Source: Cytophagaceae bacterium ABcell3 | GTDB taxonomy: Bacteria; Bacteroidota; Bacteroidia; Cytophagales; Cytophagaceae | NCBI GenBank assembly: GCA_030913385.1 | Contig: CP133159.1 | Coordinates: 1,758,584-1,822,583 of the forward strand | Length of the DNA: 64,000 bases | Reading direction: 5' to 3' | In this document: positions 14,701 to 61,378 of the stretch, piece after piece | Numbering within the stretch: the stretch's first letter is position 1 | How the letters are laid out: the number at the start of each line of letters is the position of its first letter | Notes under the pieces: generated by a model | Databases searched by the model: none | What the model was told of the DNA's origin: nothing | Seen by the model: the letters and a program-made list of their open reading frames with translations, nothing else | Position numbers and translations under genes: made by a program

Positions 14701-17700
14701 AGCCATTTGCCAGCGCCTGACCTCAGTGTGAGTGCTGTGACTGCCAATCAGTCTAATATTTCGCCGGGCGACAGTATTACTGTTTCATGGGAAATTGAGA
14801 ATATTGGAGAAGGCTTCTCCACCATTGATTGGGTTGAGCGCATTTATATGCAGACGGTCGATGGGCAAGACCGTACCCAAATAGCACAGTCCTCTTTCGC
14901 TAACGACGACACTTTGTTTACTGGGGGAGTTTGGGAAAGAAGTGCAAAGATTGAAATTCCTTCCCAGGTGACTTTGGGAGATGAAGGAGTATTTGTTGTA
15001 GAAATTATTCCAGGGCCATCTATTACCGAAGTTCCGGGTGGAGAAGCGAACAATATTGCGGTGCAGGATACGCCTTGGTCTGTCATTAGGATCTTATCCA
15101 TTGAGTTGTCTTCTGATGAGATAACCGAAGGAGACGAAAATGGCATAAGTGTTAGGGTAAACAGAAGTGGGTCTTTAAGTGATCCTGTAGAAGTAACTAT
15201 TGGCCTAAACGATCCAGATAGATTTACCTTCCCTTCCATAGTTACCATTCCATCGGGTAGGGCTGGTGCTAGTTTTACATTGACGGCTCCAGATAATGAC
15301 CTGATTGAAGGCGATATCGTGGATGTCTTGAGCGTTTCTTCTGATGGTTTTACAACTGCAGAGGCGGATATCACATTGATAGATAATGATAAACCTTCCT
15401 TGACAATCCAAGATTTGCCATCAGAAGTAACCGAGGGTGACAGTGTTACCTTTAGGGTTGAAACTAATCTGGCACCTGTTCAGCCTTTAGAAGTTTTCTT
15501 GAGCGCTTCCCCTTCAAACCGTTTTCCTTTGCCTGCTTCTGTAATAATTCCAGAAGGAAGTTTGTCGGTAGAGGTTACGGTCAAGATTGAGGATAATGAT
15601 ATCCCTGAACTTGATGTTGATGTTGCTATTATTGCCTCTGCGTCTAATCATTATACAGCCAATGGGTCAGTCCTAGTGTTGGATAATGATGTGCCAGGCC
15701 TTGAGCTTATTTTGCATTCAGATGTTATCTCGGAAGGAGCAGGCGCGCATGCTACTCAAGCTACACTACGAAGGACGGAGGGCAGTAATCCGATTGCTTT
15801 CAACACACACTTATCTGCCAGCATTCCTGATAATCTTATCATGCCTTCTTCCATTCCTATGGCTGCCGATGTAAATGAAGTGACTTTCACCATTGGTGCC
15901 ATTGATAATGATTTGGCCGAGGGCGACCGGGACATAGAAATAACTGCTTCTGTGTTTGTCAATTCATGTGGCTGTAATGTGCCTGAAACTTCTGCTGGGC
16001 ATGTTTCTGCTGTTCTAACAGTTACAGACAATGATGGGCCTGCGCTAACTTTAACTACGAACGAACTTACGCTTCCTGAAGGAGTGGATATGGCTGGTGA
16101 TTTAAGGGTTACCAGAAACACGCCTTCTGATGAACCTCTGACAGTGCAACTGTCATCCTCAGATGAAGAAAGGGCCATAGTGCCAGAAACCGCTACCATA
16201 CCTGTAGGGGAGTCTTTTGTGGAAGTCCCAATTACCACTATTGATAATGGGATTTCTGATGGAGATCACCAAGTTTATTTTTATGCAAAAGCACCGGAAT
16301 ATTCTACCGGTTCGGTATGGATCATGGTGACAGACCAAAATATCCCTGACTTGCAAATTGCTAGTGTAGGTTTAAACAATCATAACATACAGGCTAATAG
16401 CATTTTTAATTATACTGTAACGGTTAAGAATACTGGATTTGCAACGGCGCCTTCCGGGATAGTAGTGAGAGGCTACTTGTCGAAAAATAATAGGGTAGAT
16501 GCATCGGATGTGATGGTCAGCGAAGATATAATCCCTTCGTCTATTGTTGCGGGCGGTACTGCTCAAATACAAAATGCTGTTCAAGCGCCTAATTTGCCGG
16601 GTGGACATAATTTAATTTTCCAAGTCAATCCTGATGCTGTTATCAATGAGCTTTTATATACGAATAATGTTTCTGACCCGGTACAGATTAATATCAATGC
16701 AGATTACGCTGCCACGGCAACTGTTGTAAATGATTATTTTTTAAGAGGGCAAGCAGTCCCGATAAATGGTACGGCTACTAGACATGATGGCTCTTTGGCT
16801 GCTAATGAGGAAGTGGAAGTTTATATTATTACCAATGGGTTAAGGAGAACCCTTACGGCAATGACCGACGATAATGGGAATTACAGTACCGAGTTTGTGC
16901 CACTAGAAAGAGAAGCAGGACACTATATCGTTGGCGCAAGCTACCCAGGAATGAGTTTGTCAGATGAACAGGACAGTTTTGATATACTTGGGTTAAGGGT
17001 AAATAATAATCGTGTGCCGGAGTTTAAGGTTACTGTGGACGATACCATCACTGGCTCTATCTCTGTCAGGAATATGAGCAATAGAACCCTGACAAACTTT
17101 ACCATTGCTCCTGGTAATTCCATGCCAAATGGAGCTCAAATTCTTTTTGATACCCTTGCTTCCTTTGAAGGAAACGCAACCGTTAATCTTCCTTATCTGG
17201 TAACAGGGACGACTTTATCACCAGGTGTTAATTTTGAGGTGGCAAATATGTTGGGTGTCGCCGACGAAGGGGTGGTTCAAGAGGTGGATGTGTTTTATTA
17301 TTGTCAGGCACCTAACGCTTTGTTGGAGCCAGATCAACGAAGATTGGATATAAGAGCTTCTTCCAGTACAAGGGATCGACTGGTAGAACTGAATATTGTT
17401 AACAGAGGCCAAGGAGAGTCTGGCGAGCTATCAATAGACTTGCCCCAGCTTAACTGGTTGAGAAGTGTAACCCCAACGACACTTCCTTCCTTGTCTTCTG
17501 GCGATACTGCTGTTGTTATTTTACGTTTCCTTACCCTTGAGGAGGTGCCTTTTAATTATCCGGTGAGTGGAAGTATGGCAATAAACTCGCCTAACAGCGA
17601 TTTTGTACGTATTCCGTTTACTTTTGAAAAAGTATCTGAGTCAACTGGGGATTTGGTTGTAGATGTAACCAATCAGTTTACTTATTATTCTGAAGATGAA

Positions 17701-20700: not shown

Positions 20701-23682
20701 TCAAATATCATTGATAGTACGGTAGATATTTCGCAGCTTGACCCGGTTACTTTTGAGGTCGATTTATCTTCTTTGACCATAGGTAATGGCTTTTATAATT
20801 TTACGGTTCAGGCTGCTAATATTGAGGATGTAGATGGTGTTAAAGGTGTAGAAGGTAGAAATGTCACTTGGTCACAATTCCTGACCGTTCCAACGGTTCA
20901 GGCTTACTATGGCATACCTGAAGGTAATATTGCAGCGGCGTTTGATACCATACAATTAGAGTTTAACCTGCCTATGGATTTAAGCACCGTCACACCTGAA
21001 AGGTTTAATGTTTATCAAGATAGCCTTCAGGTTGGCACTTTATCTATAGACTCTATTAGTGAGGACAAGCAAATGGTTTACTTGTCTGGCTTGCAGGAAA
21101 TTCTTATAGAAAGCGGTACATACGAATTAATAATAGATCTTCCTGAAATGCTTTCCGAAAGTGGGGAAGCTGGTATGCAAGAGCGTAGCATCAGGCTGAC
21201 CTTGGACAATGAAGGGCCTGTGGTGATAAATATGGCAACCTCAACCAGAGGAGGGCTTGACCCGCAACATGTAACTTTTGTGGACATTGAGTTTGATGAG
21301 GAGGCCTATGGCTTTAATACTGCTTCTGTTCGACTTACAAGGAATGGAGAACGATTGCACTTGAATATTGATCAGCTTTCCAATACGGACTTGAAAAATT
21401 GGAGTGCCGGTAATTTTGGAATGCTTACTTATTATGAGGGAGATTATAAGTTTACCGTAAATACTGAAGGTATAGATGATGCCATAGGAAATGCAGGGGT
21501 CGAAACTTTTGAAATTGCCTGGACGGTGAATCGGTCGGAGGAGTTAGAAGTTACTGAACTTGCTATTGATCCTGATCTTGGTCACTCAGATTCAGACGGA
21601 ATCACTTCAACACGTTCACTTGATGTTAGTTTTTACTTAAGCCGGTTTGCTGAAGAGCTGGTGATTTCTCAGGTAGACCTAAGTGGAGAAGTAACCCTGG
21701 AAACACTGTATAATGTAGACAGTGGATTTGTTTCTGTACCGGTGCGGTTGCCTTCTGGCGGAAATACAGGTATAAGGGTGCATGCAACAGGCATTTACGG
21801 AGGTACAGGAGAAACCACTAAGACCTTGTTTATCGATCAAGTGCCTTTGACAGCAGAATGGAATTTTGATGACAATCAAGAGGTGGATGTGCAGGTAGAT
21901 AGCCTTCATATTAGTTTCAATAGTAAATTGCTTGATGATGAGCTGCTGATAGAGGCTTTACGTTTCCGAAGAAATGATGTTGATCTTCCAAAAGAGGAAA
22001 TTGATATTGTAAAAATAAGCGATACCGAATATCAAATAACAGGTCTCGGTCAGACGAGGAGTACTGCTGGGAAATATGAAATAAGCATGAACCTCGAAAT
22101 GCTTCACAAGCATAGCAGTGGAATTAATGGGACAGGACGGCGCACCGTGTCGTGGAAGCTTAAATCTACGAATCTGGCTCCTGTCGCTGATGCTGGCAAA
22201 GATGTTATGGTAACGACTGAAGGTTGGGTGATCTTGGATGCTTCTTCTTCGTATGACCCTGATGGCGATGAAATTACTTTCGAGTGGTTTGCGCCGGAAG
22301 GAGTAACCTTGTTAGATTCGTTAACATCTACCCCTTCTTTTAAGGTTACGGAAGATGATCATGGAAATACTTATTCTTTCTTACTCATTGTACGGGATGG
22401 AGCACTGTTCTCCACGGATGTAGTGGATGTGCATATCAATATTGGTGCAGAAGCGCCTATTGTTCTGGTTGGTAACGTGTTTTTGCAGGGTCGCCCTGAG
22501 GCGCCAAATAGTAAGTGGGCAATACCTTTAGATATTAAGATATTCCCAGCAGGTCAGACTACTCCATTGGTTACCTATCATTCTCAGACGGATGAATCAG
22601 GGGCTTTTGTACTTGATAATTTAGAGGTTGAAAATGGCGATTATGTAATAACGGTAAAAAATGATCGCACCTTGAAAAATGCACAGGCTGCAACTTTGAC
22701 GGCAGGGGAGAATGAGATTGAGTTTGGTAGATTGAAAGATGGGGATGCTGATAATGACAATAAGGTTTCAATTACGGATTTCAGCATCTTGGCCAATACT
22801 TTTAATTTGCCTTTAGGGGAGGGCGGATATGATGAGCGCGCAGATTTTAATAGAGATGATCAGGTGACTTTGCTAGACTTCTCGCTGCTTGCCAGCAATT
22901 TTAACGAAAATGGATATAAGGTAGAAGCCTCTTCGTATGATGAATTAAGTGCTTTAAATGCTCGGGCCAGCAGCTTTAGGGCTATGTTTACCGACGCTGA
23001 AATTTCTATGGAACTACAAAAGCCTGCTGAACCAGTCCAAAAAGGGGCTACCTTCACGATGCCGGTGGTGCTTTATACTGGCGACCAAGAAATTGATGCA
23101 GCCGAAGTATATCTGGAATTTGACCCTGAGGTTTTAAGAGTTTCTGAAATGAGTGGAATGGGCAATCTGCCGGTAGAGTTGATCAACCATTATGATAATG
23201 ACATAGGAAAAATTGCTTATGCAGCGGGGTCTTTATCAGATCTTCCTTTAGGGGATTTTGGGTTGTTTAACATTACTTTTGAGGTACTGGATGATACAAA
23301 AGAATCTTATGTGAAATTCACCAATGATTATCCGGGACAAACTCAGGTTGCTTATAAGGGATATTCCGTGTTGGGAGATTTAAATGACGCTGCACTATTG
23401 ATTACAAGCGTAGAGGAATGTGAGTCGTGTGAAGAGGTCAATGTAAGCGTTGCTCCAAACCCTAGTTCCGGAATGTTCAATGTTTCTTTAAACGGATATT
23501 CTCAATCTGGAGGAAAGTTGACTGTAACTTCAGTAGATGGAGCAGTGCTCAAGTCCGTAGAGCTGGACTTCCACAGCGAAATGGAAATACCAGTGGATAT
23601 AACCGAACAACCTGCAGGGGTTTACTTTATTCAGGTAGAAACCTATCGCTCTGTTAAGGTGCTTAAGATTTTGAAATTTTAG
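8728..23682 (+). CDS. Giant T9SS-exported multidomain surface protein (4984 aa) with Ig-like array, dockerin-like and cohesin-like domains
   Basis: Signal peptide 1-21. Residues 22-1871 hold 19 tandem Ig-like modules of about 97 residues resembling the Kre9/KNH-type repeat (pattern PNGGE..W....IRW, YSxDxGxxW, WTVP, CLVRV). Then, roughly: a PPC-like domain 1876-1992, CARDB 1996-2115, four Calx-beta-like domains 2122-2538 (EGD..., DNDxPxL), CARDB 2540-2655, a carboxypeptidase-regulatory-like domain from 2975, a segment with 12 Cys at 3205-3356, a helical segment 3370-3530, two Ig-like (Big_5 type) domains about 3945-4165, and a PKD-like domain 4483-4572. Residues 4671-4731 carry two dockerin-type calcium motifs (DADNDNKVSITD and DFNRDDQVTLLD). 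A cohesin-like domain spans 4758-4895 and the T9SS sorting domain 4905-4984 (VAPNPSSG...GVYFIQ). It is probably a cell-surface adhesin or scaffold. Its neighbour at 23703 begins 20 bases later. Confidence 0.93.
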   Translation: MIKFILSFGLIFFALGFQSNAQNITITEPNGGETLFAGSSTNIRWTSSDVSSSVTIEYSVDNGDSWTLITGGVSNSGSYSWTVPDDVSEECLVRVSDHADQSVFGISEEVWTIKHPYINLTSFNGGEEVEGCSQQTISWEAEGLSNRVRLYYSFDGGATWTYITNPLSSNSTYNWTVPSIESENFKVRVQDQGNSSFSDESEGTFTVTKPEDHLQLTSPNGGETWSASSIRTITWNSVGDIGNVSIRYSTNGGENWSWARNAEGQNASNVSNTGSYDWLIPDMSASSSCLVQVQEQGDACNIDISNNTFTIDNSPSITVTEPAEGETWYVDRSYTIRWTASNLPTNFVAIDYSTDNGSTWHVVTESQTNSWGTYNWTIPDDVSSQCLIRVKARDNDAITSISPGHFTIAQPSVELTSPVGGEVIAGCSSFPITWEQEGIQSRVRLYYSLDEGNNWIYITNPLVGNSSYNWSVPSVGSDKIRIRIEDNNNSAVNDESASNFSITRGDNYIDLVSGNGGEIWPASSIQEITWNSTGTVGNVNIRYSTNGGSSWSWARDPSGSNASNVPNAGSFEWLLPDNVESSNCLIQITDRSNNCLRGYSDSFFTIDDSPTISVTAPEEDDIWYIGRSYTIRWSASNLPTNFVAIDYSTDNGSTWKVATESQTNSWGTFNWTVPDEVSDECLIRVKARDDSTIYNLSNTFSIAPRTLTLTSPIGGEEIEGCTTFPITWEHEGIQSRVRLYYSLDEGENWIYITNPLAGNSGNSFNWNVPSVGTGNIRVRVEDSNSSEVYDENSENVSVSRGDNYLDLVAGNGGETWPASSIQEITWNTTGTVGNVDIRYSTNGGSSWSWARDPSGSNASNVPNTGSFEWLLPDNIESSNCLLQISERSNNCNVDFSDEFFTIDNSPTISVTAPEEADEWFVGRSYTIRWSASNLPSNFVAIDFSTDSGSTWQVATESQTNSWGTFNWTVPDEVSDQCLIRVKARDDATIYGISHLFEIVPPTVTLLSPTGGESWPGCTQNQISWEHEGIQSRVRLYYSLDEGNNWIYIANPLAGNSGNTYNWTVPAVGTDKIRVKVEDQNNSAVSDSSAANFTLSKGSNYLTVTAPNGLEEFSSSTMQEITWTTTGSVGNVTIRYSTNGGESWTLARDNESSTASNIPSTGSFLWQVPNNVSSDRCIIQIHEHNNSCNIDFSDDFFTINDDPVLTLSSPLPGETLFYEQNKTIRWNSTNLPNNRVDLEYSLDGEEWIPIASNLSANSSRNWTVPAEMSNTAYVRVSVRDYPEVYDVNSEPFYIKPPQVQVLTPNTGEENWLVGENRNITWSSTALSSNALMQIEFSDDLGESWSLIVDSISNSGSYIWTIPDISTSSRCLVKVSSMLYPESYDVNDNAFTVTRPVVGITVPNDGQLWYIGESRSIRWEGMGSAPNVRLDLSSDGGQTFSPIVESTPNNGQYYWFISYDVAPSEDSYIRIIDLDDPTNGDTTDVPFTIAKPIITLSAPAPSETLYLGQTKSISWDNTGMSNAKVKIEYSVDSAESWSEIALVNNTGSYEWSIPSSLTPSDHALLRVSDENDASISDEVYIEVVKPSITVVNPNGGETVFLGQDRLITWQKDGAFSPNVSIDYSPDNGSTWEEVVERIANNESYTWTVPTTLEPGSAYLIRIRDEIDTTIVDVSDAPFTVEQPSLTVTAPNGGEIYYNGVSRAIRWNSRGLGSSRDLEINLTTVDSTNVMLIASGTRNSGSFNWAIPQDLAPGEYLIKINDLTDTGILDYSDAPFTISKPSLSLVTPSGGENWYNGQVRQIRWNSTALPRFSEIKIEYSLDQGTSWETIAANTNNTGSFFWTVPTEFTGAALMKISSLVFDEVYDISHSTFNIFEPRAGDEFETAIALGALPLSLSDTTRFYSAQYTGPNSQPSGDIFYSFTIPEESDSVSFSLTASFQAIMHILSSETDHVVSSPVGRNIEYGLRDLTPGSTYYLVVEGSNNNSGNFNLNINSHLPAPDLSVSAVTANQSNISPGDSITVSWEIENIGEGFSTIDWVERIYMQTVDGQDRTQIAQSSFANDDTLFTGGVWERSAKIEIPSQVTLGDEGVFVVEIIPGPSITEVPGGEANNIAVQDTPWSVIRILSIELSSDEITEGDENGISVRVNRSGSLSDPVEVTIGLNDPDRFTFPSIVTIPSGRAGASFTLTAPDNDLIEGDIVDVLSVSSDGFTTAEADITLIDNDKPSLTIQDLPSEVTEGDSVTFRVETNLAPVQPLEVFLSASPSNRFPLPASVIIPEGSLSVEVTVKIEDNDIPELDVDVAIIASASNHYTANGSVLVLDNDVPGLELILHSDVISEGAGAHATQATLRRTEGSNPIAFNTHLSASIPDNLIMPSSIPMAADVNEVTFTIGAIDNDLAEGDRDIEITASVFVNSCGCNVPETSAGHVSAVLTVTDNDGPALTLTTNELTLPEGVDMAGDLRVTRNTPSDEPLTVQLSSSDEERAIVPETATIPVGESFVEVPITTIDNGISDGDHQVYFYAKAPEYSTGSVWIMVTDQNIPDLQIASVGLNNHNIQANSIFNYTVTVKNTGFATAPSGIVVRGYLSKNNRVDASDVMVSEDIIPSSIVAGGTAQIQNAVQAPNLPGGHNLIFQVNPDAVINELLYTNNVSDPVQININADYAATATVVNDYFLRGQAVPINGTATRHDGSLAANEEVEVYIITNGLRRTLTAMTDDNGNYSTEFVPLEREAGHYIVGASYPGMSLSDEQDSFDILGLRVNNNRVPEFKVTVDDTITGSISVRNMSNRTLTNFTIAPGNSMPNGAQILFDTLASFEGNATVNLPYLVTGTTLSPGVNFEVANMLGVADEGVVQEVDVFYYCQAPNALLEPDQRRLDIRASSSTRDRLVELNIVNRGQGESGELSIDLPQLNWLRSVTPTTLPSLSSGDTAVVILRFLTLEEVPFNYPVSGSMAINSPNSDFVRIPFTFEKVSESTGDLVVDVTNQFTYYSEDEPKVEGAFVRVRNYFSGELYAEGYTDEHGIFEAFDIPEGRHRITVEKDKHLSYNNTVNINPGEVTNTSVFINYQAITFSWSVEPTAIQDEYDITLVAEFETHVPMPVVTVDMPDEMPQLFGSEVYAFNVVLTNHGLIAAEDVALNLPDSDSEYEFVSNYEPARLHAQQSIQVPVVMRRRGSQEEKSASGGGASLKDVSDFLGIDAPRFSQKSSGGNCSDFVGVVYWYKCNISNGLWQQGGKMFTYSGRTCPGSGRPSGGFYTGPGASGNPAVPNCASCPPPSGSGTGSTPEFSTSRSSCVDCINDLIGVASCLPIPGATVIGTGSCVFGNYRSGGGALGYIPCIPGLIPSPIGCAKGIADATRSCATTQTAGPAPKSSDDPASGLFQQISDNLDMVIESYEREELWAREYFGNLVESDAWRDLSSKIDGYVVNLDSIPLSYQTDVLAEMQGYDISQSAIKDFFVRWNLSIEALDNDVMEPNDEYGDIINWNYVKELSDEIIEAMEEAESLGYESLYDMYVANIEAVDEIIEGQSNAVCATVKVQFSQQLTMTREAFEGTLDIFNGHPTDPMDSLTVNIRITDENGVPSNDLFEIQVQSLDNVSDITGTGAIASQQNGLVKFLFIPVQHAAPEVPKEYNFGGSVRYFDPYAQAMVTLPLADVPLMVNPSPNLMLHYFMERNILGNDPFTDVVEPSIPAELAVMVENHGHGPAVNMLISSAQPEIIENEKGLAIDFEIVGSNFQGEPKNLGVTNINFGTIPPLETRIGQWYFTSTLLGKFVSYQADVVHSNSFGNPELSLVKGVKLHELTKSIKAYGPEEDNINDFLVNDVFDIDDTPDIIYFSEGKRTETVYEAESGSFSAPVSPANLTNTLTLTASEKGWNYIRLDDPGNNRYDLVSVTREDGQEIPLDNAWLTFVTLPVSRPPNYENKFHFVDKLDSLEPVEYTVVWKRKDTGVPSVVSIEGVAEPVTAEQVEKLTVVFNTEINPSTFTIDDLNLAFQGGSNIIDSTVDISQLDPVTFEVDLSSLTIGNGFYNFTVQAANIEDVDGVKGVEGRNVTWSQFLTVPTVQAYYGIPEGNIAAAFDTIQLEFNLPMDLSTVTPERFNVYQDSLQVGTLSIDSISEDKQMVYLSGLQEILIESGTYELIIDLPEMLSESGEAGMQERSIRLTLDNEGPVVINMATSTRGGLDPQHVTFVDIEFDEEAYGFNTASVRLTRNGERLHLNIDQLSNTDLKNWSAGNFGMLTYYEGDYKFTVNTEGIDDAIGNAGVETFEIAWTVNRSEELEVTELAIDPDLGHSDSDGITSTRSLDVSFYLSRFAEELVISQVDLSGEVTLETLYNVDSGFVSVPVRLPSGGNTGIRVHATGIYGGTGETTKTLFIDQVPLTAEWNFDDNQEVDVQVDSLHISFNSKLLDDELLIEALRFRRNDVDLPKEEIDIVKISDTEYQITGLGQTRSTAGKYEISMNLEMLHKHSSGINGTGRRTVSWKLKSTNLAPVADAGKDVMVTTEGWVILDASSSYDPDGDEITFEWFAPEGVTLLDSLTSTPSFKVTEDDHGNTYSFLLIVRDGALFSTDVVDVHINIGAEAPIVLVGNVFLQGRPEAPNSKWAIPLDIKIFPAGQTTPLVTYHSQTDESGAFVLDNLEVENGDYVITVKNDRTLKNAQAATLTAGENEIEFGRLKDGDADNDNKVSITDFSILANTFNLPLGEGGYDERADFNRDDQVTLLDFSLLASNFNENGYKVEASSYDELSALNARASSFRAMFTDAEISMELQKPAEPVQKGATFTMPVVLYTGDQEIDAAEVYLEFDPEVLRVSEMSGMGNLPVELINHYDNDIGKIAYAAGSLSDLPLGDFGLFNITFEVLDDTKESYVKFTNDYPGQTQVAYKGYSVLGDLNDAALLITSVEECESCEEVNVSVAPNPSSGMFNVSLNGYSQSGGKLTVTSVDGAVLKSVELDFHSEMEIPVDITEQPAGVYFIQVETYRSVKVLKILKF
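9067..12606 (+). repeat. Four-fold super-repeat of three Ig-like modules (about 885 bp each)
   Basis: Modules 2-13 of the giant protein fall into a repeating A-B-C order. A modules carry GC..PITWEHEG, B modules PASSIQEITW and SWSWARD, and C modules GRSYTIRW..SNLPTNFV. Units start at 9067, 9952, 10834 and 11722, giving lengths 885, 882, 888 and 885 bp. This implies that the array grew by duplicating three modules at a time. Confidence 0.85.
22735..22917 (+). other. Dockerin type I-like module (within the giant CDS)
   Basis: Two calcium-loop motifs with Asp/Asn at positions 1, 3, 5 and 12, each followed by a short helix (FSILANTF and FSLLASNF), separated by about 20 residues. This matches the duplicated F-hand layout of type I dockerins. 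Confidence 0.75.
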
Positions 23683-50627: not shown

Positions 50628-50649
50628 TTGTTGGTGTTTTCACCAACAA
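50628..50649. repeat. Dispersed palindrome, copy 2
   Basis: TTGTTGGTG / CACCAACAA around TTTT, preceded by ccctccc. Same family as 4050-4073. Confidence 0.88.
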
Positions 50650-50760: not shown

Positions 50761-50778
50761 GTTGGTGTTTTCACCAAC
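50761..50778. repeat. Dispersed palindrome, copy 3
   Basis: GTTGGTG / CACCAAC around TTTT, preceded by cccccctgtt. It borders the kinase remnant. Confidence 0.85.
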
Positions 50779-50994: not shown

Positions 50995-51018
50995 CTTGTT
51001 GGTGAAAACACCAACAAG
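50995..51018. repeat. Dispersed palindrome, copy 4
   Basis: CTTGTTGGTG / CACCAACAAG around AAAA, followed by ggggga (opposite orientation to copies 2 and 3). A half-site, accaacaaggggga, lies near 50882. Confidence 0.88.
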
Positions 51019-51023: not shown

Positions 51024-51129
51024 GTGTCGCTTGTCGGTATTTATTTTTAGATAGGAGTATATTTTTTTGGGTTACTTATGAGGCGTTGTGGGTATGTACC
51101 CATATAATGTCTTATTATAAGTTTTAGCT
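51024..51129 (+). promoter_or_regulatory. Duplicated promoter/leader of the surface-protein array, copy 1
   Basis: About 106 bases shared nearly exactly with the regions before copies 2 and 3, and with small changes before copy 4. It includes a 12-base palindrome GGGTATGTACCC at 51090-51101, 28 bases before the ATG, which may be an operator or the stem of a leader hairpin. Confidence 0.6.
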
Positions 51130-53547
51130 ATGGTACATAAAATTACATTTTCTTGGCACCTTTTTGTGTGTTTTCTGTTGTTTTCCTTTCACCTATTGCC
51201 TGCGCAGGAGATTCCTTTCTTTGATGTGGAGGTGGGGCGGGTTGCCCAGAATCACCGCCATTCTTCAGGAGGAGGGTATGAGCTTGCCAACCTGACTTCG
51301 CCGAGCCTTTCGAACCGTACACCTGTGGGCGATTACCTGATAGCCTCGGAAGAGGTCCAGGGCAATGCCAGTGTGCTGGAAGGGGAGGGTATCCCCATCG
51401 GTTTTGATTTCCCTTTTGCGGGCGATACTTTTGACGTGTTCGGTGTGAGCGGCAAGGGGTATATTGTGCTTGGCAAGCGCAGCGAAGGTTTGACCATCTA
51501 TGCCGATACGCTCCGGTACGAAGAGAATGACACGGTCTTTACCCGTCAGAACCCTTATCTGATATCAGGGTTAATGTTGGGAAAGAATACAGAGACTGTT
51601 TATAATTTTCGTTCGGCCTATAACAATTGGGGGTTCCCGGGAGATAGGAATATATCAATATATATAAGTTATACTCTTAGATTGCCTGCTCTAAACGGAC
51701 TGTCTGGGTCTTTTTTATGGGATTCAATGATTTCTTTATATGAAGACGGTAGGATTGTTAAAACATATACATCCAATGTCATGGATGGTGTTGAATTTGA
51801 AACGCTTGCATTTGTTCTGGACAGGTTCGGGGACGACAAAGGCTTGGGCATATATGCTCAGGAAGGAGGTTCTTGGGACAACCCTGAGGTTTTTTATGGC
51901 CTGGACAACCGCTTTGGTTATTTCAGTGAAAGTTTCCGGCCGGAAATTGTAAGAGACTTTCCGGGTTCAATTTATACCCCCTTTGACCGTCCATATAGCT
52001 GTCCCCAGCCTTTCCATTGGGAAATGGGCACGCGGGAGGGGAGCTACCACGCTTACTTTGACAATGACTATTCCCTGCTGGATGAAAGGCGGGCGAACAC
52101 GACGAGTTCCCTGTGGTGGTACAGTCCGGGTATCCATAATGCCTCCTATGATGTTTACCTTGGCACCGACCCCCATGACATGTGGGAGGCTGGGAGCGAG
52201 CTGCCCGGAGACAGTGTGGACATAAGGGCCGGCCATAGTGCAGTGCCTTTGGCCGAGTTCCCTTTCAGCGGGCTGGCACCGGACATGAAGTATTATATGG
52301 AGGTGATAGGGGCTACAGAAACAGATACCCTGACCTGTAGTTATGAGTTCCGTACCAAGACGGAAGAGTTCAATGACCGGTACTGCCGGTACTCAAATCC
52401 GCATGGCTGGGCCCAAACCCTGATGTACAAAGTGGATTTTAATGACCTTGAATTTGAGAACCCTCTAGAGCCCGGGCTTTTCAATACCTCCCGCCTGGTG
52501 CCGGACACGGGAAACTGGACCACTGAGCTTGCGCGGGGGGAGACCTATACCCTTTCCATAGGGGCGACAGAGCAGGCAGGCAGGCACGATATGCGGGTCT
52601 TTATAGACTATGACCAGGACGGGGTTTTTGACGAGGAGCGGGAAGCTTACCTGACCACGAGCAACAGCAGTACCAGCTACGAAGACATAGAGATCACCAT
52701 TCCTGAAGGGGCATTGCTTGGCAGGACGCGGATGAGGGTGGCCTCAAGGCAATGGCCCAGCTATGTTTTCCCTTGTGGGGACAGCTATCTTGACTTTACC
52801 GTGACCATCGTGCCCCAGGAGCATTGCCGCAGTCTGTCTTATAATGGGGAGGTTCTGGAAACTTGTTTCCGAGAGGCAGACGGTGCTTTTTCTGTTTCCC
52901 CTGAAGGTGGTACGCCCCCTTACAGCATCCAGTGGGACACGGGCAACCCGGAAGATACAGGCGCGGAACTTTCCGGCTTAGGGGTGAACGCCCACCACCG
53001 TGCGACTATCGAAGACGCTGAAGGTTGCCATATCCGCACGTCCATGTTGGTGATGCGCCAGACGCAGCCCGTGCTAGCGGACACCAATGGGCTATACGAA
53101 CACCGCCAGGCTTCCCTTTCCGGTGGGGTGCCACCTTTTTCCATAGAACTGAGCGGTGAAGGGGAGACATACTTCTTTGAAGGTGTTTCGGACCTCCTGG
53201 ACTTGGAGGGACTTGCGCCTGGCACTTACGACCTGGAGGTGCACGACAGCCAAGGCTGTACCTATACCGTAGAAGGCGTGGAGGTACCGGTGCTTTTATC
53301 GACCGCTACCGGTTCAGAGACGCTTGCCGATGTGCTGGTCTATCCCAACCCCGCCCGTGACATACTGTACGTACAAGGGGTGTCGCACCATGCGGTGGCA
53401 GAGGTTTATTCTATGAAAGGCGTGCTGGTGAAGGAAGAAAAGCTATCCGGCAACAGCATTGGCCTTACAGGGATCCCTTCCGGCCTTTATATCCTTCGCC
53501 TGAAGGATGGAGATATAATGTTTAACCAGAAAGTCCTCGTGCATTGA
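51130..53547 (+). CDS. T9SS-exported GEVED/SprB-repeat surface protein, array copy 1 (805 aa, intact)
   Basis: Signal peptide 1-26 (LLFSFHLLPAQ). An N-terminal beta domain of unknown family has variable segments at about 37-50 and 155-180. A fibronectin-III-like stretch follows near 325-405 (NASYDVYLGTDPHDMW). A GEVED-type domain lies at about 458-565 (RVFIDYDQDGVFDEEREAYL, IPEGALLGRTRMRVAS). Two SprB-type repeats span about 567-720 (GGTPPYSIQWDTG, GGVPPFSIELSGEG, APGTYDLEVHDSQGCTY), and the T9SS sorting domain about 728-805 (VLVYPNPARDILYV, GLYILRLKDG). It is surface-exposed or secreted, perhaps an adhesin or antigen. It is the first of four tandem copies, each with its own leader and terminator. 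Confidence 0.9.
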   Translation: MVHKITFSWHLFVCFLLFSFHLLPAQEIPFFDVEVGRVAQNHRHSSGGGYELANLTSPSLSNRTPVGDYLIASEEVQGNASVLEGEGIPIGFDFPFAGDTFDVFGVSGKGYIVLGKRSEGLTIYADTLRYEENDTVFTRQNPYLISGLMLGKNTETVYNFRSAYNNWGFPGDRNISIYISYTLRLPALNGLSGSFLWDSMISLYEDGRIVKTYTSNVMDGVEFETLAFVLDRFGDDKGLGIYAQEGGSWDNPEVFYGLDNRFGYFSESFRPEIVRDFPGSIYTPFDRPYSCPQPFHWEMGTREGSYHAYFDNDYSLLDERRANTTSSLWWYSPGIHNASYDVYLGTDPHDMWEAGSELPGDSVDIRAGHSAVPLAEFPFSGLAPDMKYYMEVIGATETDTLTCSYEFRTKTEEFNDRYCRYSNPHGWAQTLMYKVDFNDLEFENPLEPGLFNTSRLVPDTGNWTTELARGETYTLSIGATEQAGRHDMRVFIDYDQDGVFDEEREAYLTTSNSSTSYEDIEITIPEGALLGRTRMRVASRQWPSYVFPCGDSYLDFTVTIVPQEHCRSLSYNGEVLETCFREADGAFSVSPEGGTPPYSIQWDTGNPEDTGAELSGLGVNAHHRATIEDAEGCHIRTSMLVMRQTQPVLADTNGLYEHRQASLSGGVPPFSIELSGEGETYFFEGVSDLLDLEGLAPGTYDLEVHDSQGCTYTVEGVEVPVLLSTATGSETLADVLVYPNPARDILYVQGVSHHAVAEVYSMKGVLVKEEKLSGNSIGLTGIPSGLYILRLKDGDIMFNQKVLVH

Positions 53548-53563
53548 TCATAATTGATGTTTA

Positions 53564-53596
53564 AACATGTAATTGGTTGAAAAAAAATTACATGTT
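53564..53596 (+). terminator. Terminator of array copy 1
   Basis: 11-bp perfect stem AACATGTAATT / AATTACATGTT with an 11-base A-rich loop, followed by ctttt. The same hairpin recurs after copies 2 and 3. Confidence 0.8.
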
Positions 53597-53631
53597 CTTT
53601 TGTTGTAATAAACAGTCGGCTTTATTAATAT

Positions 53632-53738
53632 TGTGTCGCTTGTCGGTATTTATTTTTAGATAGGAGTATATTTTTTTGGGTTACTTATGAGGCGTTGTGG
53701 GTATGTACCCATATAATGTCTTATTATAAGTTTTAGCT
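53632..53738 (+). promoter_or_regulatory. Duplicated promoter/leader, array copy 2
   Basis: Almost identical to 51024-51129, with the palindrome GGGTATGTACCC at 53699-53710. Confidence 0.6.
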
Positions 53739-56155
53739 ATGGTACATAAAATTACATTTTCTTGGCACCTTTTTGTGTGTTTTCTGTTGTTTTCCTTTCA
53801 CCTATTGCCCGCGCAGGAAATTCCGTTTTTTGATGTGGAGGTGGGTATGTACCCAAGTAATTTCCGTTATTCTACGGCAGGGGGGAATGAACTGGCCAAT
53901 CTTACTTCACCGAGCCTTTCGAACCGTACACCTGTGGGCGACTACCTGATAGCCTCGGAAGAGGTCCAGGGCAATGCCAGTGTGCTGGAGGGGGAGGGCA
54001 TCCCCATCGGTTTTGATTTCCCCTTTGCGGGCGACACTTTTGACGTGTTCGGTGTGAGCGGCAAGGGGTATATTGTGCTTGGCAAGCGCAGCGAAGGTTT
54101 GACCATCTACGCCGATACGCTCCGGTACGAAGAGAATGACACGGTCTTTACCCGTCAGAACCCTTATTTGATATCAGGTCTTATGCTTGGGAAAAATGCT
54201 GAGACTGTTTACTCTTTATGGGTTGTTTGTAGAAATCATGGATTTCCCGGAGATAGAAATATCTCTATCCTTATAGATTACTCTCTACGGCTTCCTGCCT
54301 TAAACGGGCTTTCTGGCTCATTTTCGTGGACATCAATGATTTCTTTATATGAAGATGGCAGGATTGTGAAGACTTATACATCCAATGTTATGGATGGTGT
54401 TGAGTTTGAAACGCTTGCATTTGTTCTGGACAGGTTCGGGGACGACAAAGACTTGGGTATATATGCTCAAGAAGGGGGGGGTGGGACAGCCCTGAGGTTT
54501 TTTATGGCCTAGACAATCGCTTTGGTTATGTTAGTGAAAGTTTTCGGCCGGAAAGTGTGAGAGACTTTCCGGGTTCAATTTATACCCCCCTTGCCCGTCC
54601 ATACAGCTGTCCTTGGCCTTTCCATTGGGAAATGGGTACGCGGGAGGGGAACTACCACGCTTACTTTGACAATGACTATTCCCTGCTGGATGAAAAGCGG
54701 GCGAACACGACAAGTTCCCTTTGGTGGTATGGCTCGGGTATCCATAATGCCTCCTATGATGTTTATCTTGGCACCGACCCCCACGATATGTGGGAGGCGG
54801 GGGAGGGGCTGTCCGGAGACAGTGTGGACATAAGGGCCGGGCGTAGTGCAGTGCCTTTGGTGGAGTTCCCGTTCAGCGGGCTGGCACCGGACATGAAGTA
54901 CTATATGAAGGTAACAGGGTCAACAGAAACAGATACCCTGACCTGTAGCTATGAGTTCCGTACCAAGACGGAAGAATTCAATGACCGCTACTGCCGGTAT
55001 TCAAACCCGCATGGCTGGGCCCAAACCCTGATGTACAAAGTGGATTTTAATGACCTTGAATTTGAGAACCCACTAGAACCCGGGCTTTTCAATACCTCCC
55101 GCCTGGTGCCGGACACGGGGAACTGGACCACTGAGCTTGCACGGGGGGAGACCTATACCCTTTCCATAGGGGCGACAGAGCGAGCGAGCGACCACCGTAT
55201 GAGGGTCTTTATAGACTATGACCAGGACGGGGTTTTTGACGAGGAGCGGGAAGCTTACCTGACCACGAGCAACAGCAGTACCAGCTACGAAGACATAGAG
55301 ATCACCATTCCTGAAGGGGCATTGCTTGGCAGGACGCGGATGAGGGTGGCCTCAAGGCAATGGCCTTATTATATCTCCCCTTGTGGCAACAGCTATCTTG
55401 ACTTTACCGTGACCATTGTGCCCCAGGAGCATTGCCGCAGTCTGTCTTATAATGGGGAGGTCCAGGAAACTTGTTTCCGAGAGGCAGACGGTGCTTTTTC
55501 TGTTTCCCCTGAAGGTGGCACGCCCCCTTACAGCATCCAATGGGACACGGGAGACCCGGAAGATACAGGCGCGGAACTTTCCGGCTTAGGGGTGAACGCC
55601 CACCACCGTGCGACTATCGAAGACGCTGAAGGTTGCCATATCCGCACGTCCATGTTGGTGATGCGCCAGACGCAGCCCGTACTGGCGGACACCAATGGGC
55701 TATACGAGCACCGCCAGGCTTCCCTTTCCGGCGGGGTGCCGCCTTTTTCCATAGAACTAAGCGGTGAAGGGGAGACATACTTCTTTGAAGGTGTTTCAGA
55801 CCTCTTGGACTTGGAGGGGCTTGCGCCTGGCACTTACGACCTGGAGGTGCACGACAGCCAAGGCTGTACCTATACTGTAGAAGGCTTGGAGGTGCCGGTG
55901 CTTTTATCGACTGCTACCGGTTCAGAGACGCTTTCCGATGTGCTGGTCTATCCCAACCCCGCCCGTGACATATTGTACGTACAAGGGGTGTCGCAACATG
56001 CGGTGGCAGAGGTTTATTCTATGAAAGGCGTGCTGGTGAAGGAAGAAAAGTTGTCCGGCAACAGCATTGGCCTTGCAGGGATCCCTTCCGGCCTTTATAT
56101 CCTTCGCCTGAAGGATGGAGATATAATGTTTAACCAGAAAGTCCTCGTGCATTGA
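53739..56155 (+). pseudogene. T9SS surface protein, array copy 2: out of frame at a G8 run (phase-variable or broken)
   Basis: The first frame (53739-54512) ends after about 257 residues; the second (from about 54500 to 56155) carries the Fn3-like, GEVED, SprB and sorting domains. The break is at 54474-54481, a run of eight G where copies 1, 3 and 4 have the sequence for EGGSWD. Relative to them copy 2 is one base short, so one added G would restore the full protein. Apart from two variable windows it follows copy 1 closely (e.g. GEGLSGDSVDIRAGRSAVPL here). It may be switched off reversibly by slippage, or be a true pseudogene, or reflect a homopolymer sequencing error. Confidence 0.85.
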
Positions 56156-56171
56156 TCATAATTGATGTTTA

Positions 56172-56204
56172 AACATGTAATTGGTTGAAAAAAAATTACA
56201 TGTT
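56172..56204 (+). terminator. Terminator of array copy 2
   Basis: Same 11-bp AACATGTAATT / AATTACATGTT stem as after copy 1. Confidence 0.8.
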
Positions 56205-56239
56205 CTTTTGTTGTGATAAACAGTCGGCTTTATTAATAT

Positions 56240-56346
56240 TGTGTCGCTTGTCGGTATTTATTTTTAGATAGGAGTATATTTTTTTGGGTTACTTATGAGG
56301 CGTTGTGGGTATGTACCCATATAATGTCTTATTATAAGTTTTAGCT
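56240..56346 (+). promoter_or_regulatory. Duplicated promoter/leader, array copy 3
   Basis: Almost identical to the leader of copy 1; palindrome GGGTATGTACCC at 56307-56318. Confidence 0.6.
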
Positions 56347-58763
56347 ATGGTACATAAAATCGCATTTTCTTGGCACTTTTTTGTGTGTTTTCTGTTGTTT
56401 TCCTTTCACCTATTGCCTGCGCAGGAGATTCCTTTCTTTGATGTGGAGGTGGGGCGGGTTGCCCAGAATCACCGCCATTCTTCAGGAGGAGGGTATGAGC
56501 TTGCCAACCTGACTTCGCCGAGCCTTTCGAACCGTACACCTGTGGGCGATTACCTGATAGCCTCGGAAGAGGTCCAGGGCAATGCCAGTGTGCTGGAAGG
56601 GGAGGGTATCCCCATCGGTTTTGATTTCCCTTTTGCGGGCGATACTTTTGACGTGTTCGGTGTGAGCGGCAAGGGGTATATTGTGCTTGGCAAGCGCAGC
56701 GAAGGTTTGACCATCTATGCCGATACGCTCCGGTACGAAGAGAATGACACGGTCTTTACCCGTCAGAACCCTTATCTGATATCAGGGTTAATGTTGGGAA
56801 AGAATACAGAGACTGTTTACTCTATGAGGGTTGATTTTAGGAATCACGGATTTCCAGGGGATAGGAATATTGCTATTTTCATAAGTTGCTCCCTGCGCCT
56901 CCCTGCTCTCAATGGGCTTTCTGGCTCATTTTCGTGGACATCAATAATCTCATTGTATGAAGATGGGAAAATCTCTAAAACATTTCAGACTAATGCGATG
57001 GACGGGGTTGATATTGAAACGCTTGCGTTTGTTTTGAGCAGATTCGGGGAAGACAAAGACTTGAGTATATATGCTCAAGAAGGAGGATCTTGGGACAGCC
57101 CTGAGGTAACTTATAATTCAGAAAACCGGTTCGGCTATGTCAGTGAAAGTTTCCGGCCGGAAAGTGTCACTGATTTTCCAGGGTCAAGCTATATCCCCCG
57201 TGACCGTCCATATAGCTGTCCTTGGCCTTTCCACTGGGAAATGGGCACGCGGGAGGGGAACTACCACGCTTACTTTGACAATGACTATTCCCTGCTGGAT
57301 GAAAAGCGGGCGAACACGACGAGTTCCCTGTGGTGGTATGGCTCGGGTATCCATAATGCCTCCTATGATGTTTACCTTGGCACCGACCCCCATGACATGT
57401 GGGAGGCCGGGAGCAGCCTGTCAGGAGACAGTGTGGACATAAGGGCCGGGCGTAGGGCAGTGCCTTTGGTGGAATTCCCTTTCAGCGGGCTGGCGCCTGA
57501 CATGAAGTATTATATGGAGGTGATAGGGGTTACAGAAACAGATACCCTGACCTGTAGTTATGAGTTCCGTACCAAGACGGAAGAGTTCAATGACCGGTAC
57601 TGCCGGTACTCAAATCCGTATGGCTGGGCTGAACCCCTGATGTACAAAGTGGATTTTAATGACCTTGAATTTGAGAACCCATTAGAGCCCGGGCTTTTCA
57701 CTACCTCCCGCCTGGTGCCGGACACGGGAAACTGGACCACTGAACTTGCACGGGGGAGACCTATACTCTTTCCATAGGGGCGACAGAGCGGGCGGGCGAC
57801 CACCGTATGCGGGTCTTTATAGACTATGACCAGGACGGGGTTTTTGACGAGGAGCGGGAAGCTTACCTGACCACGAGCAACAGCAGTACCAGCTACGAAG
57901 ACATAGAGATCACCATTCCTGAAGGGGCATTGCTTGGCAGGACGCGGATGAGGGTGGCCTCAAGGCAATGGCCCAGCTATGTTTTCCCTTGTGGCAACAG
58001 CTATCTTGACTTTACCGTGACCATCGTGCCCCAGGAGCATTGCCGCAGTCTGTCTTATAATGGGGAGGTCCTGGAAACTTGTTTCCGAGAGGCAGACGGT
58101 GCTTTTTCTGTTTCCCCTGAAGGTGGCACGCCCCCTTACAGCATCCAGTGGGACACGGGCAACCCGGAAGATAGAGGCCAGGAGCTTTCCGGTTTAGGGG
58201 TGAACGCCCACCACCGTGCGACTATCGAAGACGCTGAAGGTTGCCATATCCGCACGTCCATGTTGGTGATGCGCCAGACGCAGCCCGTGCTAGCGGACAC
58301 CAATGGGCTATACGAGCACCGCCAGGCTTCCCTTTCCGGCGGGGTGCCGCCTTTTTCCATAGAACTAAGCGGTGAAGGGGAGACATACTTCTTTGAAGGT
58401 GTTTCGGACCTCCTGGACTTGGAGGGGTTTGCCCCTGGCACTTACGACCTGGAGGTGCACGACAGCCATGGCTGTACCTATACTGTAGAAGGCTTGGAGG
58501 TGCCAGTGCTTTTATCGACTGCTACCGGTTCAGAGACGCTTTCCGATGTGCTGGTCTATCCCAACCCCGCCCGTGACATATTGTACGTACAAGGGGTGTC
58601 GCACCATGCGGTGGCAGAGGTTTATTCTATGAAAGGCGTGCTGGTGAAGGAAGAAAAGCTATCCGGCAACAGCATTGGCCTTGCAGGGATCCCTTCCGGC
58701 CTTTATATCCTTCGCCTGAAGGATGGAGATATAATGTTTAACCAGAAAGTCCTCGTGCATTGA
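56347..58763 (+). pseudogene. T9SS surface protein, array copy 3: out of frame at a G5 run (phase-variable or broken)
   Basis: The first frame (56347-57777) runs through the signal peptide, N-terminal domain and Fn3-like region; the second (57807-58763) covers GEVED, SprB and sorting domains. The break is at 57752-57756, where five G stand in place of the six found at 52535-52540, 55143-55148 and 60363-60368 in the other copies, so ARGETYTLS becomes ARGRPILFP. The N-terminal variable window is the same as in copy 1, but the segment from about residue 155 to 290 is the most divergent of the four (KISKTFQTNAMDGVDIETL, PEVTYNSENRFGYVSESF). Confidence 0.85.
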
Positions 58764-58779
58764 TCATAATTGATGTTTA

Positions 58780-58812
58780 AACATGTAATTGGTTGAAAAA
58801 AAATTACATGTT
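58780..58812 (+). terminator. Terminator of array copy 3
   Basis: Same 11-bp stem as after copies 1 and 2. Copy 4 does not have it. Confidence 0.8.
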
Positions 58813-58847
58813 CTTTTGTTGTAATAAACAGTCGGCTTTATTAATAT

Positions 58848-58954
58848 TGTGTAGCTTTTCGGTATTTATTTTTAGATAGGCGTATATTTTTTGGGGTTAC
58901 TTATGGGGCGTTGTGGGTATGTACCCATATAATGTCTTATTATAAGTTTTAGCT
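58848..58954 (+). promoter_or_regulatory. Promoter/leader, array copy 4 (diverged)
   Basis: Same layout with several substitutions (gtagcttttcgg, aggcgtat, atggggcg) while the palindrome GGGTATGTACCC (58915-58926) is unchanged. Conservation of the palindrome amid change suggests a function. Confidence 0.6.
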
Positions 58955-61378
58955 ATGGTACATAAAATCGCATTTTCTTGGCACTTTTTTGTGTGTTTTC
59001 TGTTGTTTTCCTTTCACCTATTGCCTGCGCAGGAGATTCCTTTCTTTGATGTGGAGGTGGGTAGTTTCTTAAGGAACAGTCGCCATGTCACAGGGGGGGG
59101 GAGTGATCTTGCCAACTTGACCTCGCCGAGCCTTTCGAACCGTACACCTGTGGGCGATTACCTGATTGCTTCGGAAGAGGTCCAGGGCAATGCCCCTGTG
59201 CTGGAAGGGGAAGGCATTCCCATCGGTTTTGATTTCCCCTTTGCGGGAGACACTTTTGACGTGTTCGGTGTCAGCGGCAAGGGGTATATTGTACTTGGCA
59301 AGCGCAGCGAAGGTTTGACTATCTACGCCGATACGCTCCGGTACGAAGAGAATGACACGGTCTTTACCCGTCAGAACCCTTATCTGATATCAGGGTTAAT
59401 GTTGGGAAAGAATACTGAGACTGTCTATAACTTTCGAGTAAACCATAAAACATGGGGTTTCCCGGGAGACAGGAGCATGTCGATATATATAAGTCATACC
59501 ATGAGACTTCCTGCCTTGAACGGGCTTACAAGGTCTTTTTTATGGGATTCAATGATTTCTTTATATGAAGATGGCAGGATTGTTAAAAGCTATACATCCA
59601 ATGTCGTGGATGGTGTTGAATTTGAAACGCTTGCATTTGTTCTGGACAGGTTCGGGGACGACAAAGACTTGGGCATATATGCTCAAGAAGGAGGTTCCTG
59701 GGACAGCCCTGAGGTTTTTTATGGCCTGGACAACCGCTTTGGGTATTTCAGTGAAAGTTTCCGGCCGGAAATTTCTGGCAGCATGTTTCCTGGGACAATC
59801 TATACTCCCTTTGCCCGTCCATATAGCTGTCCCCAGCCTTTCCACTGGGAGATGGGTACGCGGGAGGGGAACTACCACGCTTACTTTGACAATGACTATT
59901 CCCTGCTGGATGAAAAGCGGGCGAACACGACGAGTTCCCTGTGGTGGTACAGTCCGGGTATCCATAATGCCTCCTATGATGTTTACCTTGGCACCGACCC
60001 CCATGACATGTGGGAGGCTGGGAGCGAGCTGCCCGGAGACAGTGTGGACATAAGGGCCGGCCATAGTGCAGTGCCTTTGGCCGAGTTCCCTTTCAGCGGG
60101 CTGGCACCGGACATGAAGTATTATATGGAGGTGATAGGGGCTACAGAAACAGATACCCTGACCTGTAGTTATGAGTTCCGTACCAAGACGGAAGAGTTCA
60201 ATGACCGGTACTGCCGGTACTCAAATCCGCATGGCTGGGCCCAAACCCTGATGTACAAAGTGGATTTTAATGACCTTGAATTTGAGAACCCTCTAGAGCC
60301 CGGGCTTTTCAATACCTCCCGCCTGGTGCCGGACACGGGAAACTGGACCACTGAGCTTGCGCGGGGGGAGACCTATACCCTTTCCATAGGGGCGACAGAG
60401 CAGGCAGGCAGGCACGATATGCGGGTCTTTATAGACTATGACCAGGACGGGGTTTTTGACGAGGAGCGGGAAGCTTACCTGACCACGAGCAACAGCAGTA
60501 CCAGCTACGAAGACATAGAGATCACCATTCCTGAAGGGGCATTGCTTGGCAGGACGCGGATGAGGGTGGCCTCAAGGCAATGGCCCAGCTATGTTTTCCC
60601 TTGTGGGGACAGCTATCTTGACTTTACCGTGACCATCGTGCCCCAGGAGCATTGCCGCAGTCTGTCTTATAATGGGGAGGTTCTGGAAACTTGTTTCCGA
60701 GAGGTAGACGGTGCTTTTTCTGTTTCCCCTGAAGGTGGCACGCCCCCTTACAGTATCCAATGGGACACGGGAAACCCGGAAGATACAGGCACGGAACTTT
60801 CCGGCTTAGGGGTGAACGCCCACCACCGTGCGACTATCGAAGACGCTGAAGGTTGCCATATCCGCACGTCCATGTTGGTGATGCGCCAGACGCAGCCCGT
60901 ACTGGCGGACACCAATGGGCTATACGAGCACCGCCAGGCTTCCCTTTCCGGCGGGGTGCCGCCTTTTTCCATAGAACTGGGCGGTGAAGGGGAGACATAC
61001 TTCTTTGAAGGTGTTTCGGACCTCTTGGACTTGGAGGGGCTTGCGCCTGGCACTTACGACCTGGAGGTGCACGACAGCCATGGCTGTACCTATACTGTAG
61101 AAGGCTTGGAGGTGCCAGTGCTTTTATCGACTGCTACCGGTTCAGAGACGCTTTCCGATGTGCTGGTCTATCCCAACCCCGCCCGTGACATATTGTACGT
61201 ACAAGGGGTGTCGCACCATGCGGTGGCAGAGGTTTATTCTATGAAAGGCGTGCTGGTGAAGGAAGAAAAGCTGTCCGGCAACAGCATTGGCCTTGCAGGG
61301 ATCCCTTCCGGCCTTTATATCCTTCGCCTGAAGGATGGAGATATAATGTTTAACCAAAAAATAATAGTCGAAAACTAA
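58955..61378 (+). CDS. T9SS-exported GEVED/SprB-repeat surface protein, array copy 4 (807 aa, intact; G9 run)
   Basis: Same domain order as copy 1 and fully in frame. It has a run of nine G at 59093-59101 coding for three Gly at about residues 47-49, just after the signal peptide; gain or loss of one base there would abolish the protein. The variable windows are its own (SFLRNSRHVTGGGSDL; VNHKTWGFPGDRSMSIYISH). The middle, from the Fn3-like region through GEVED, matches copy 1 almost exactly (SPGIHNASYD, ATEQAGRHDMRV). The last residues differ from the other copies (FNQKIIVEN instead of FNQKVLVH), marking the downstream boundary of the duplication. Confidence 0.9.
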   Translation: MVHKIAFSWHFFVCFLLFSFHLLPAQEIPFFDVEVGSFLRNSRHVTGGGSDLANLTSPSLSNRTPVGDYLIASEEVQGNAPVLEGEGIPIGFDFPFAGDTFDVFGVSGKGYIVLGKRSEGLTIYADTLRYEENDTVFTRQNPYLISGLMLGKNTETVYNFRVNHKTWGFPGDRSMSIYISHTMRLPALNGLTRSFLWDSMISLYEDGRIVKSYTSNVVDGVEFETLAFVLDRFGDDKDLGIYAQEGGSWDSPEVFYGLDNRFGYFSESFRPEISGSMFPGTIYTPFARPYSCPQPFHWEMGTREGNYHAYFDNDYSLLDEKRANTTSSLWWYSPGIHNASYDVYLGTDPHDMWEAGSELPGDSVDIRAGHSAVPLAEFPFSGLAPDMKYYMEVIGATETDTLTCSYEFRTKTEEFNDRYCRYSNPHGWAQTLMYKVDFNDLEFENPLEPGLFNTSRLVPDTGNWTTELARGETYTLSIGATEQAGRHDMRVFIDYDQDGVFDEEREAYLTTSNSSTSYEDIEITIPEGALLGRTRMRVASRQWPSYVFPCGDSYLDFTVTIVPQEHCRSLSYNGEVLETCFREVDGAFSVSPEGGTPPYSIQWDTGNPEDTGTELSGLGVNAHHRATIEDAEGCHIRTSMLVMRQTQPVLADTNGLYEHRQASLSGGVPPFSIELGGEGETYFFEGVSDLLDLEGLAPGTYDLEVHDSHGCTYTVEGLEVPVLLSTATGSETLSDVLVYPNPARDILYVQGVSHHAVAEVYSMKGVLVKEEKLSGNSIGLAGIPSGLYILRLKDGDIMFNQKIIVEN

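Follow-up and report, generated by a model that had tools for sequence, protein, structure and literature searches.

A four-copy tandem array of T9SS surface-protein genes with conversion tracts and divergence islands in Cytophagaceae bacterium ABcell3

What maintains four head-to-tail copies of one surface-protein gene in a bacterial chromosome, and why do short parts of them differ strongly when the rest is so alike? We investigated this in Cytophagaceae bacterium ABcell3, a cellulose-degrading strain reported to represent a new genus-level lineage of that family (PMC11700989). Its genome is a single contig of 5,115,000 bases, of which a stretch of 64,000 bp (genome positions 1758584-1822583), hereafter the window, was analysed; coordinates refer to the window and its forward strand unless the genome is named.

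Layout of the array and the encoded protein

The array spans 51024-61378 on the forward strand, as delimited by the ORF list, the alignment and a genome-wide DNA search (E-value 0.001), in which these four places match and no fifth copy is found; such an arrangement cannot be put down to chance. The units start at 51130, 53739, 56347 and 58955, with 2609, 2608 and 2608 bp to the next start, and homology sets in at 51024, exactly as a sequence-only reading of this DNA had described. Its description of each unit as leader plus gene, with a terminator for copies 1-3, agrees with the alignment, with the reservation that the hairpin is weak (z about −1.4). The leader of unit 1 (51024-51129) holds GGGTATGTACCC, and by alignment the leaders of units 2, 3 and 4 (53629-53738, 56237-56346 and 58845-58954) are nearly the same, with a few bases setting that of copy 4 apart. 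A terminator-like 3' stretch with an 11-bp hairpin follows copy 1 (53548-53628) and recurs after copies 2 and 3 (56156-56236 and 58764-58844), folding weakly in each case (z −1.36 to −1.43). It is confined to these three copies, as copy 4 diverges in its last codons and is followed by a different stretch that folds better (z −2.8). A sigma-70 scan, which does not cover Bacteroidota promoters, yielded no site in the leaders and 9 sites in the region against 11.9 expected. Upstream of the array lie DUF3999 and SMR-transporter genes, and downstream another T9SS cargo gene.

We also observe a palindrome, GTTGGTG-N4-CACCAAC, at 4053-4070, 50630-50647, 50761-50778 and 50998-51015, the last of which ends 8 bases ahead of the onset of array homology. 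It has 47 sites in the genome, which are clustered, and the reversed control pattern has 0. At genome positions 821849-822974 a tandem repeat of about 281 bp, with four copies about 92-96% alike, runs in step with four of these palindromes.

Copies 1 (51130-53547, 805 aa) and 4 (58955-61378, 807 aa) are intact, the latter being one codon longer in its body and ending differently. In copies 2 and 3 the frame is broken once, with the reading open on either side: copy 2 (53739-56155) is divided into 53739-54512 and 54557-56155, and copy 3 (56347-58763) into 56347-57777 and 57807-58763. The earlier observation that each lacks, relative to copy 1, exactly the one base that breaks its frame holds, and both losses are at G runs, a G8 in copy 2 (54474-54481) and a G5 in copy 3 (57752-57756) that is G6 in the other three copies. 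A further run, an in-frame G9, is found in copy 4 (59093-59101), within the divergent patch I described below.

The frameshifts could be assembly consensus errors, in which case all four genes would be intact. Each consists of a single-base indel in a G run, downstream of which everything is open, as such errors would leave it; however, open frames of 4984 and about 10365 codons are unbroken in the same assembly, and the breaks adjoin copy-specific bases, so that reads could be placed. We regard consensus errors as unlikely. Phase variation, in which slippage of the G runs toggles single copies on and off, is in our estimate somewhat less likely again. It is favoured by the position of both breaks, by the in-frame G9 of copy 4, and by copies 2 and 4 accounting for two of the window's three forward-strand runs of at least 7 G (plus one C9), whereas the run in copy 3 measures just 5-6 G, and one to two runs of at least 8 are expected by chance per 64 kb on a rough estimate. 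Outside the divergence islands, the codons singular to copy 2 comprise 31 synonymous and 10 nonsynonymous changes, which argues that this copy was under constraint before its break; the corresponding counts are 10 and 7 for copy 3 (small numbers), 9 and 5 for copy 1, and 9 and 3 for copy 4. The copy-specific counts, small as they are for copy 3, suggest that both frame breaks may be young, and they would represent recent G-run slips.

Upon examining the protein domains, we found three that exceed their curated cut-offs in copies 1 and 4: GEVED, SprB and a sorting domain of T9SS type A. The order in copy 1 is an N-terminal domain of about 300 residues (the N-domain), an FN3-like domain below its cut-off, as in copy 4, then GEVED, SprB and the sorting domain (E-values for the last three 1.4e-14, 1.5e-9 and 2.9e-9). 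GEVED (PF20009), downstream of the N-domain, scores 55 bits against a cut-off of 24.4, and the sorting domain scores 37.5 and 39.7 bits in copies 1 and 4 with PF18962 (cut-off 27) and 39.3 and 41.3 bits with TIGR04183 (cut-off 23). The first 26 residues resemble a Sec signal peptide by eye. The predicted domains identify copies 1 and 4 as intact cargo of T9SS type A, and the assignment as a T9SS surface protein, proposed from the letters alone, is upheld by the C-terminal sorting domain in both models.

The N-domain has no significant match in Pfam and none in the PDB by sequence or profile search. Two AlphaFold models (mean pLDDT 33.5 and 32.3) are too low in confidence for placing variable positions on a fold. 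The NR2 head domain PF18651 is absent from the Pfam scans of the array protein, and a search with it gave 0 matches in this genome and in the Cytophaga genome discussed below; since 14 control genomes likewise gave 0, this holds at the sequence level, and the fold may exist.

Conversion tracts and islands of divergence

Near-identity over kilobases had been claimed for the array, but the base-by-base alignment gives 91-94.5% (pairwise identity 0.907-0.945 over 2510 columns), and the differences are clustered. A tract of 442 bp is identical between copy 1 (51161-51602) and copy 3 (56378-56819), linking an intact with a broken copy, and one of 788 bp between copy 1 (52089-52876) and copy 4 (59917-60704); in both cases the next base differs on either side. 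Counted over the 348 polymorphic sites, identity extends for at most 67 in a row between copies 1 and 3 and 74 between copies 1 and 4 (5000 shuffles of the polymorphic sites; p = 0.0002 each), and for the other four copy pairs the permutation p-values are 0.0004-0.0036. A stretch of identity that ends at a difference on either side is the signature of gene conversion or of a double crossover, and gene conversion between copies, which the sequence-only reading had raised, is well supported by these bounded tracts and clustered identical runs in the alignment. Bounded conversion tracts occur here together with divergence peaks, a combination expected of concerted evolution with selected islands.

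The divergence peaks lie in the N-domain. Patch I covers 51234-51293 in copy 1 (homologues 53843-53902, 56451-56510 and 59059-59118) and patch II covers 51602-51739 (homologues 54211-54348, 56819-56956 and 59427-59564), both on the forward strand, as is a weaker patch III (copy 1, 51755-51957), in which mostly copy 3 differs from the rest. Synonymous divergence in patch I is high in five of the six copy pairs (dS 1.17-1.47) and zero for copies 1 and 3, whose 442-bp tract spans it; in patch II dS is 0.94-2.2, with two of the six pairs saturated. The 95-codon scaffold between patches I and II has a dS of 0-0.29. Because island dS reaches roughly 1 or exceeds it in the majority of pairs, the duplication is old and the remainder homogenised, and the recent amplification that had been proposed for the array is not supported.

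There is no direct sign of diversifying selection, since dN/dS in patches I and II, where dS is unsaturated, is 0.13-0.27 and thus below 1. Along the N-domain, pS tracks pN (rho 0.86, 16 bins), and pS is uncorrelated with between-genus conservation (rho −0.26, p = 0.34). Conversion has crossed patch I between copies 1 and 3, so inaccessibility does not account for this island. Duplicated animal genes under conversion present a similar picture, with homogenised flanks and divergence islands, and the persistence of such islands against conversion has been taken there as a sign of selection (PMC2588116; PMC3728101).

On balance we lean towards the reading that the array is a repertoire of T9SS-exported surface-protein variants, probably adhesins, which are kept distinct against conversion. 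The scaffold is homogenised by conversion while the N-domain islands stay apart, which would give several head variants. The N-domain would be the putative ligand-contacting head, with selection presumably keeping the heads different, since the islands have survived even though patch I, at least, is open to conversion. The array would in this way store variants for binding on a common scaffold, with conversion reassorting head patches between copies. An adhesin role is suggested by the domain company, as GEVED domains in adhesins are described as partnering a highly mutable ligand-binding domain (PMC10952558).

A less probable explanation, which we still take seriously, is that these are old tandem paralogues under neutral, patchy conversion, in which the islands have drifted past the identity required for conversion. 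The island dN/dS below 1 speaks for it, whereas the conversion across patch I in copies 1 and 3 speaks against it; evidence on both sides also comes from related arrays, described in the next section. The short variable patches, together with 11 reverse transcriptase matches in the genome, could further suggest a diversity-generating retroelement. Such elements act by A-specific mutagenesis, unlike the patches, which differ heavily at synonymous sites. In addition, of the 11 transcriptase matches, the four that were scanned all pass the cut-off for a group II intron maturase domain, the transcriptase of the Cytophaga genome falls just short of it (21.5 against 23 bits), and the genome DNA search gave no further copy or template. 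As far as tested, this candidate is rejected on these grounds, and we assign it a negligible probability.

The proposal that the array serves antigenic variation proper, with the broken copies as silent donors to an expressed copy and switching that evades the immune system, is very improbable in our judgement. The converted tract spanning patch I, which copy 3 (broken) shares with copy 1 (intact), is what such donation would leave. However, all copies are ordinary full units with a leader, two of them are intact, and the other two have a single, apparently recent break each. The vls, pilE and msp2 systems of antigenic variation work by segmental conversion, and the array resembles them in segmental conversion among copies, but neither an expression site nor promoterless cassettes are seen. 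With leaders on all copies, two intact genes and no layout of a single expression site with silent promoterless donors, antigenic variation is unsupported, and the nearest homologues were found in Cytophaga, a genus of free-living polymer degraders, which also counts against it. Judged from the sequences, the pattern resembles a reserve of binding variants more than a means of evading immunity.

A separate observation concerns copy 2, in which patch I has a 15-nt exact match to the copy's own leader (matching stretches within 53841-53874 and 53697-53728). The local score is 37, compared with 28 for the best of 300 shuffled leaders and 19-23 for the other copies, and part of the longer match is also common to the other copies. 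It is possible that this patch was copied from the leader, or the match may be due to chance.

Related arrays and known systems

We searched 390 genomes of the order with the N-domain, of which nine match at an E-value of at most 0.001, with strong matches confined to this genome and one other, a metagenome-assembled genome (MAG) of an uncultured Cytophaga. Within the family, two of 19 genomes match, and this genome is the sole member of its genus among the 19. The nearest homologues, found in the Cytophaga MAG, are again tandem copies, with parts of five on two contigs, 33-37% identical to those of the window; as a MAG may mix strains, this array is weaker evidence.

The amino-acid variability of the Cytophaga array peaks in homologous columns (rho 0.355, 259 columns; 0 of 249 circular shifts reach this value), the smoothed variability of the two arrays correlates at r 0.74, and their pN at rho 0.81. 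The pS of the Cytophaga array is high throughout (0.39-0.85 per bin) and uncorrelated with that of the window array (rho 0.24, p = 0.37), and one pair of its copies shows no difference over about 870 bp. The agreement in variable columns speaks for the repertoire reading, and the uncorrelated pS speaks against it. Homologous amino-acid peaks that lack matching pS peaks count against neutral paralogues, although relaxed constraint may also explain them.

In G285, a genome of another family in the same order, two copies lie in tandem, of which the second is truncated by the contig end. The differences between them are strongly clustered (0 of 5000 shuffles as clustered), and the island is in GEVED, residues 401-547 having pS 0.76 and pN 0.35 compared with 0.07 and 0.03 for residues 1-400, with an almost invariant N-domain. 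Patches I and II of the N-domain are therefore not a universal rule, and this difference in island position favours neutral paralogues. In the family of G285, two of 98 genomes match, of which G396 has one copy.

Among the known systems that come close, the tandem LRR proteins of Flavobacterium psychrophilum are encoded by consecutive surface-protein genes (PMC8400371) that are of T9SS type by their TIGR04183 labels (PMC5682007), with a copy number that varies between isolates (PMC8400371). They differ in being LRR proteins of a fish pathogen, and the consulted part of that source describes copy number and not conversion tracts or islands (PMC8400371); the part consulted of another paper on this species has nothing on tandem paralogues (PMC5808330). 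The CshA_NR2/GEVED fibrillar adhesins likewise have an N-terminal head followed by GEVED, a surface anchor and a variable head (PMC10952558). The array protein is unlike them in that its N-domain lacks a CshA_NR2 match and its sorting domain is of T9SS type A, and in the sections consulted no tandem array with conversion is described for these adhesins (PMC10952558). Surface proteins of Porphyromonas gingivalis, T9SS cargo included, are diversified by recombination or gene conversion (PMC5266723), but this is between-strain variation of gingipains, haemagglutinins and fimbriae in an oral pathogen, and the portion consulted has no tandem array (PMC5266723).

Tandem arrays of LRR surface genes that vary in copy number (PMC8400371) and recombination of T9SS cargo (PMC5266723) were thus already known. 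Searches of open-licence PubMed Central gave no tandem GEVED/T9SS array with conversion in titles or abstract starts among the matches listed, and no paper on tandem T9SS paralogues with recombination among the matches listed. As far as these searches show, the GEVED/SprB tandem array in three lineages, the pattern of conversion plus islands and the GC contrast described below appear to be new. The arrays would be a case of T9SS surface proteins that conversion maintains as sets of tandem variants, in lineages that are not known as pathogens. Immune pressure is unlikely for that reason, and phage, predators, kin and substrates are candidate pressures.

GC composition of the homogenised DNA

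Copies 1 and 4 have a GC3 of 0.56 and 0.57, compared with 0.30-0.38 for twelve other window genes that were measured and 0.355 for the genome (sd 0.049; 109 ORFs of at least 250 aa from twelve 20-kb stretches), in which one ORF of the 109 reaches 0.55. Within the array, GC3 declines with divergence (rho −0.59, 32 bins of 25 codons), and along the gene the correlation is r −0.676, with 0 of 750 circular shifts as low. GC at fourfold sites is 0.358 for the genome, 0.641 for the homogenised coding parts of the array and 0.402 for islands I and II together. GC-biased gene conversion in bacteria has been called an open issue (PMC9348620) and has been doubted (PMC6429543). That the array records it is a tentative reading that we consider doubtful; if true, converted and unconverted stretches within one gene would offer a direct test of this disputed process.

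A similar GC contrast in two other repetitive loci fits GC-biased conversion. The ORF of about 10365 codons has internal 500-codon blocks with GC3 of 0.42-0.48, its first block being at 0.28 and its last at 0.34, and eight of nine RHS-like ORFs at 4.70-4.74 Mb reach 0.52-0.63 in their first 200 codons (0.42 in the remaining one), with last blocks at 0.11-0.25. The former is located at 1608-1640 kb of the genome and contains repeats some 237 bp long that are about 83-84% alike and match the SprB portion of the search query. The latter cluster (genome 4700000-4738000) has near-identical common stretches, differing ends and IS-like ORFs, with labels assigned by eye. The ORF of 4984 codons (window 8728-23682) has diverged internal repeats near its start, and with its long repeats 68-71% alike its GC3 stays at 0.27-0.37.

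The non-coding parts count against GC-biased conversion, as the three spacers (GC 0.283-0.288) and the leader (0.33) are at the intergenic baseline of 0.309 (sd 0.049, n = 91), and so do the first 25 codons, which have a GC3 of 0.38 though homogenised. The copies in the Cytophaga MAG have a GC3 of 0.24-0.27, hardly higher than the 0.23 of a neighbouring cargo gene (0.195 in a ribosomal-protein stretch), with no clear increase along the stretch of full identity between two of them. G285 displays a weak contrast, 0.38 against 0.29 and 0.34 in the island (baseline 0.328, sd 0.034, n = 24).

The main alternative is that the coding body is of GC-rich, foreign origin. Genes of mobile or foreign descent can have a raised GC3 in this genome, as four group II intron transcriptases that were measured have values of 0.39-0.50, above the genome mean. 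The one sampled ORF of 109 with a GC3 of at least 0.55 is DnaE-like by eye and lies beside another GC-rich gene. Against a foreign origin, the islands, the leader and the spacers in the array are unremarkable in composition. At synonymous third positions outside the islands where the copies are split 3:1, the majority base is G or C at 35 and A or T at 19, which does not separate conversion bias from a GC-rich origin. Expression-driven codon bias was considered as another cause of the high GC3 and is unlikely, because the region of the ribosomal protein L2 gene has a pooled GC3 of 0.235, below the genome mean. The DnaE-like ORF and its neighbour, DinB-like by eye, lie at genome positions 4006901-4011075 with GC3 of 0.61 and 0.52, and are perhaps foreign.
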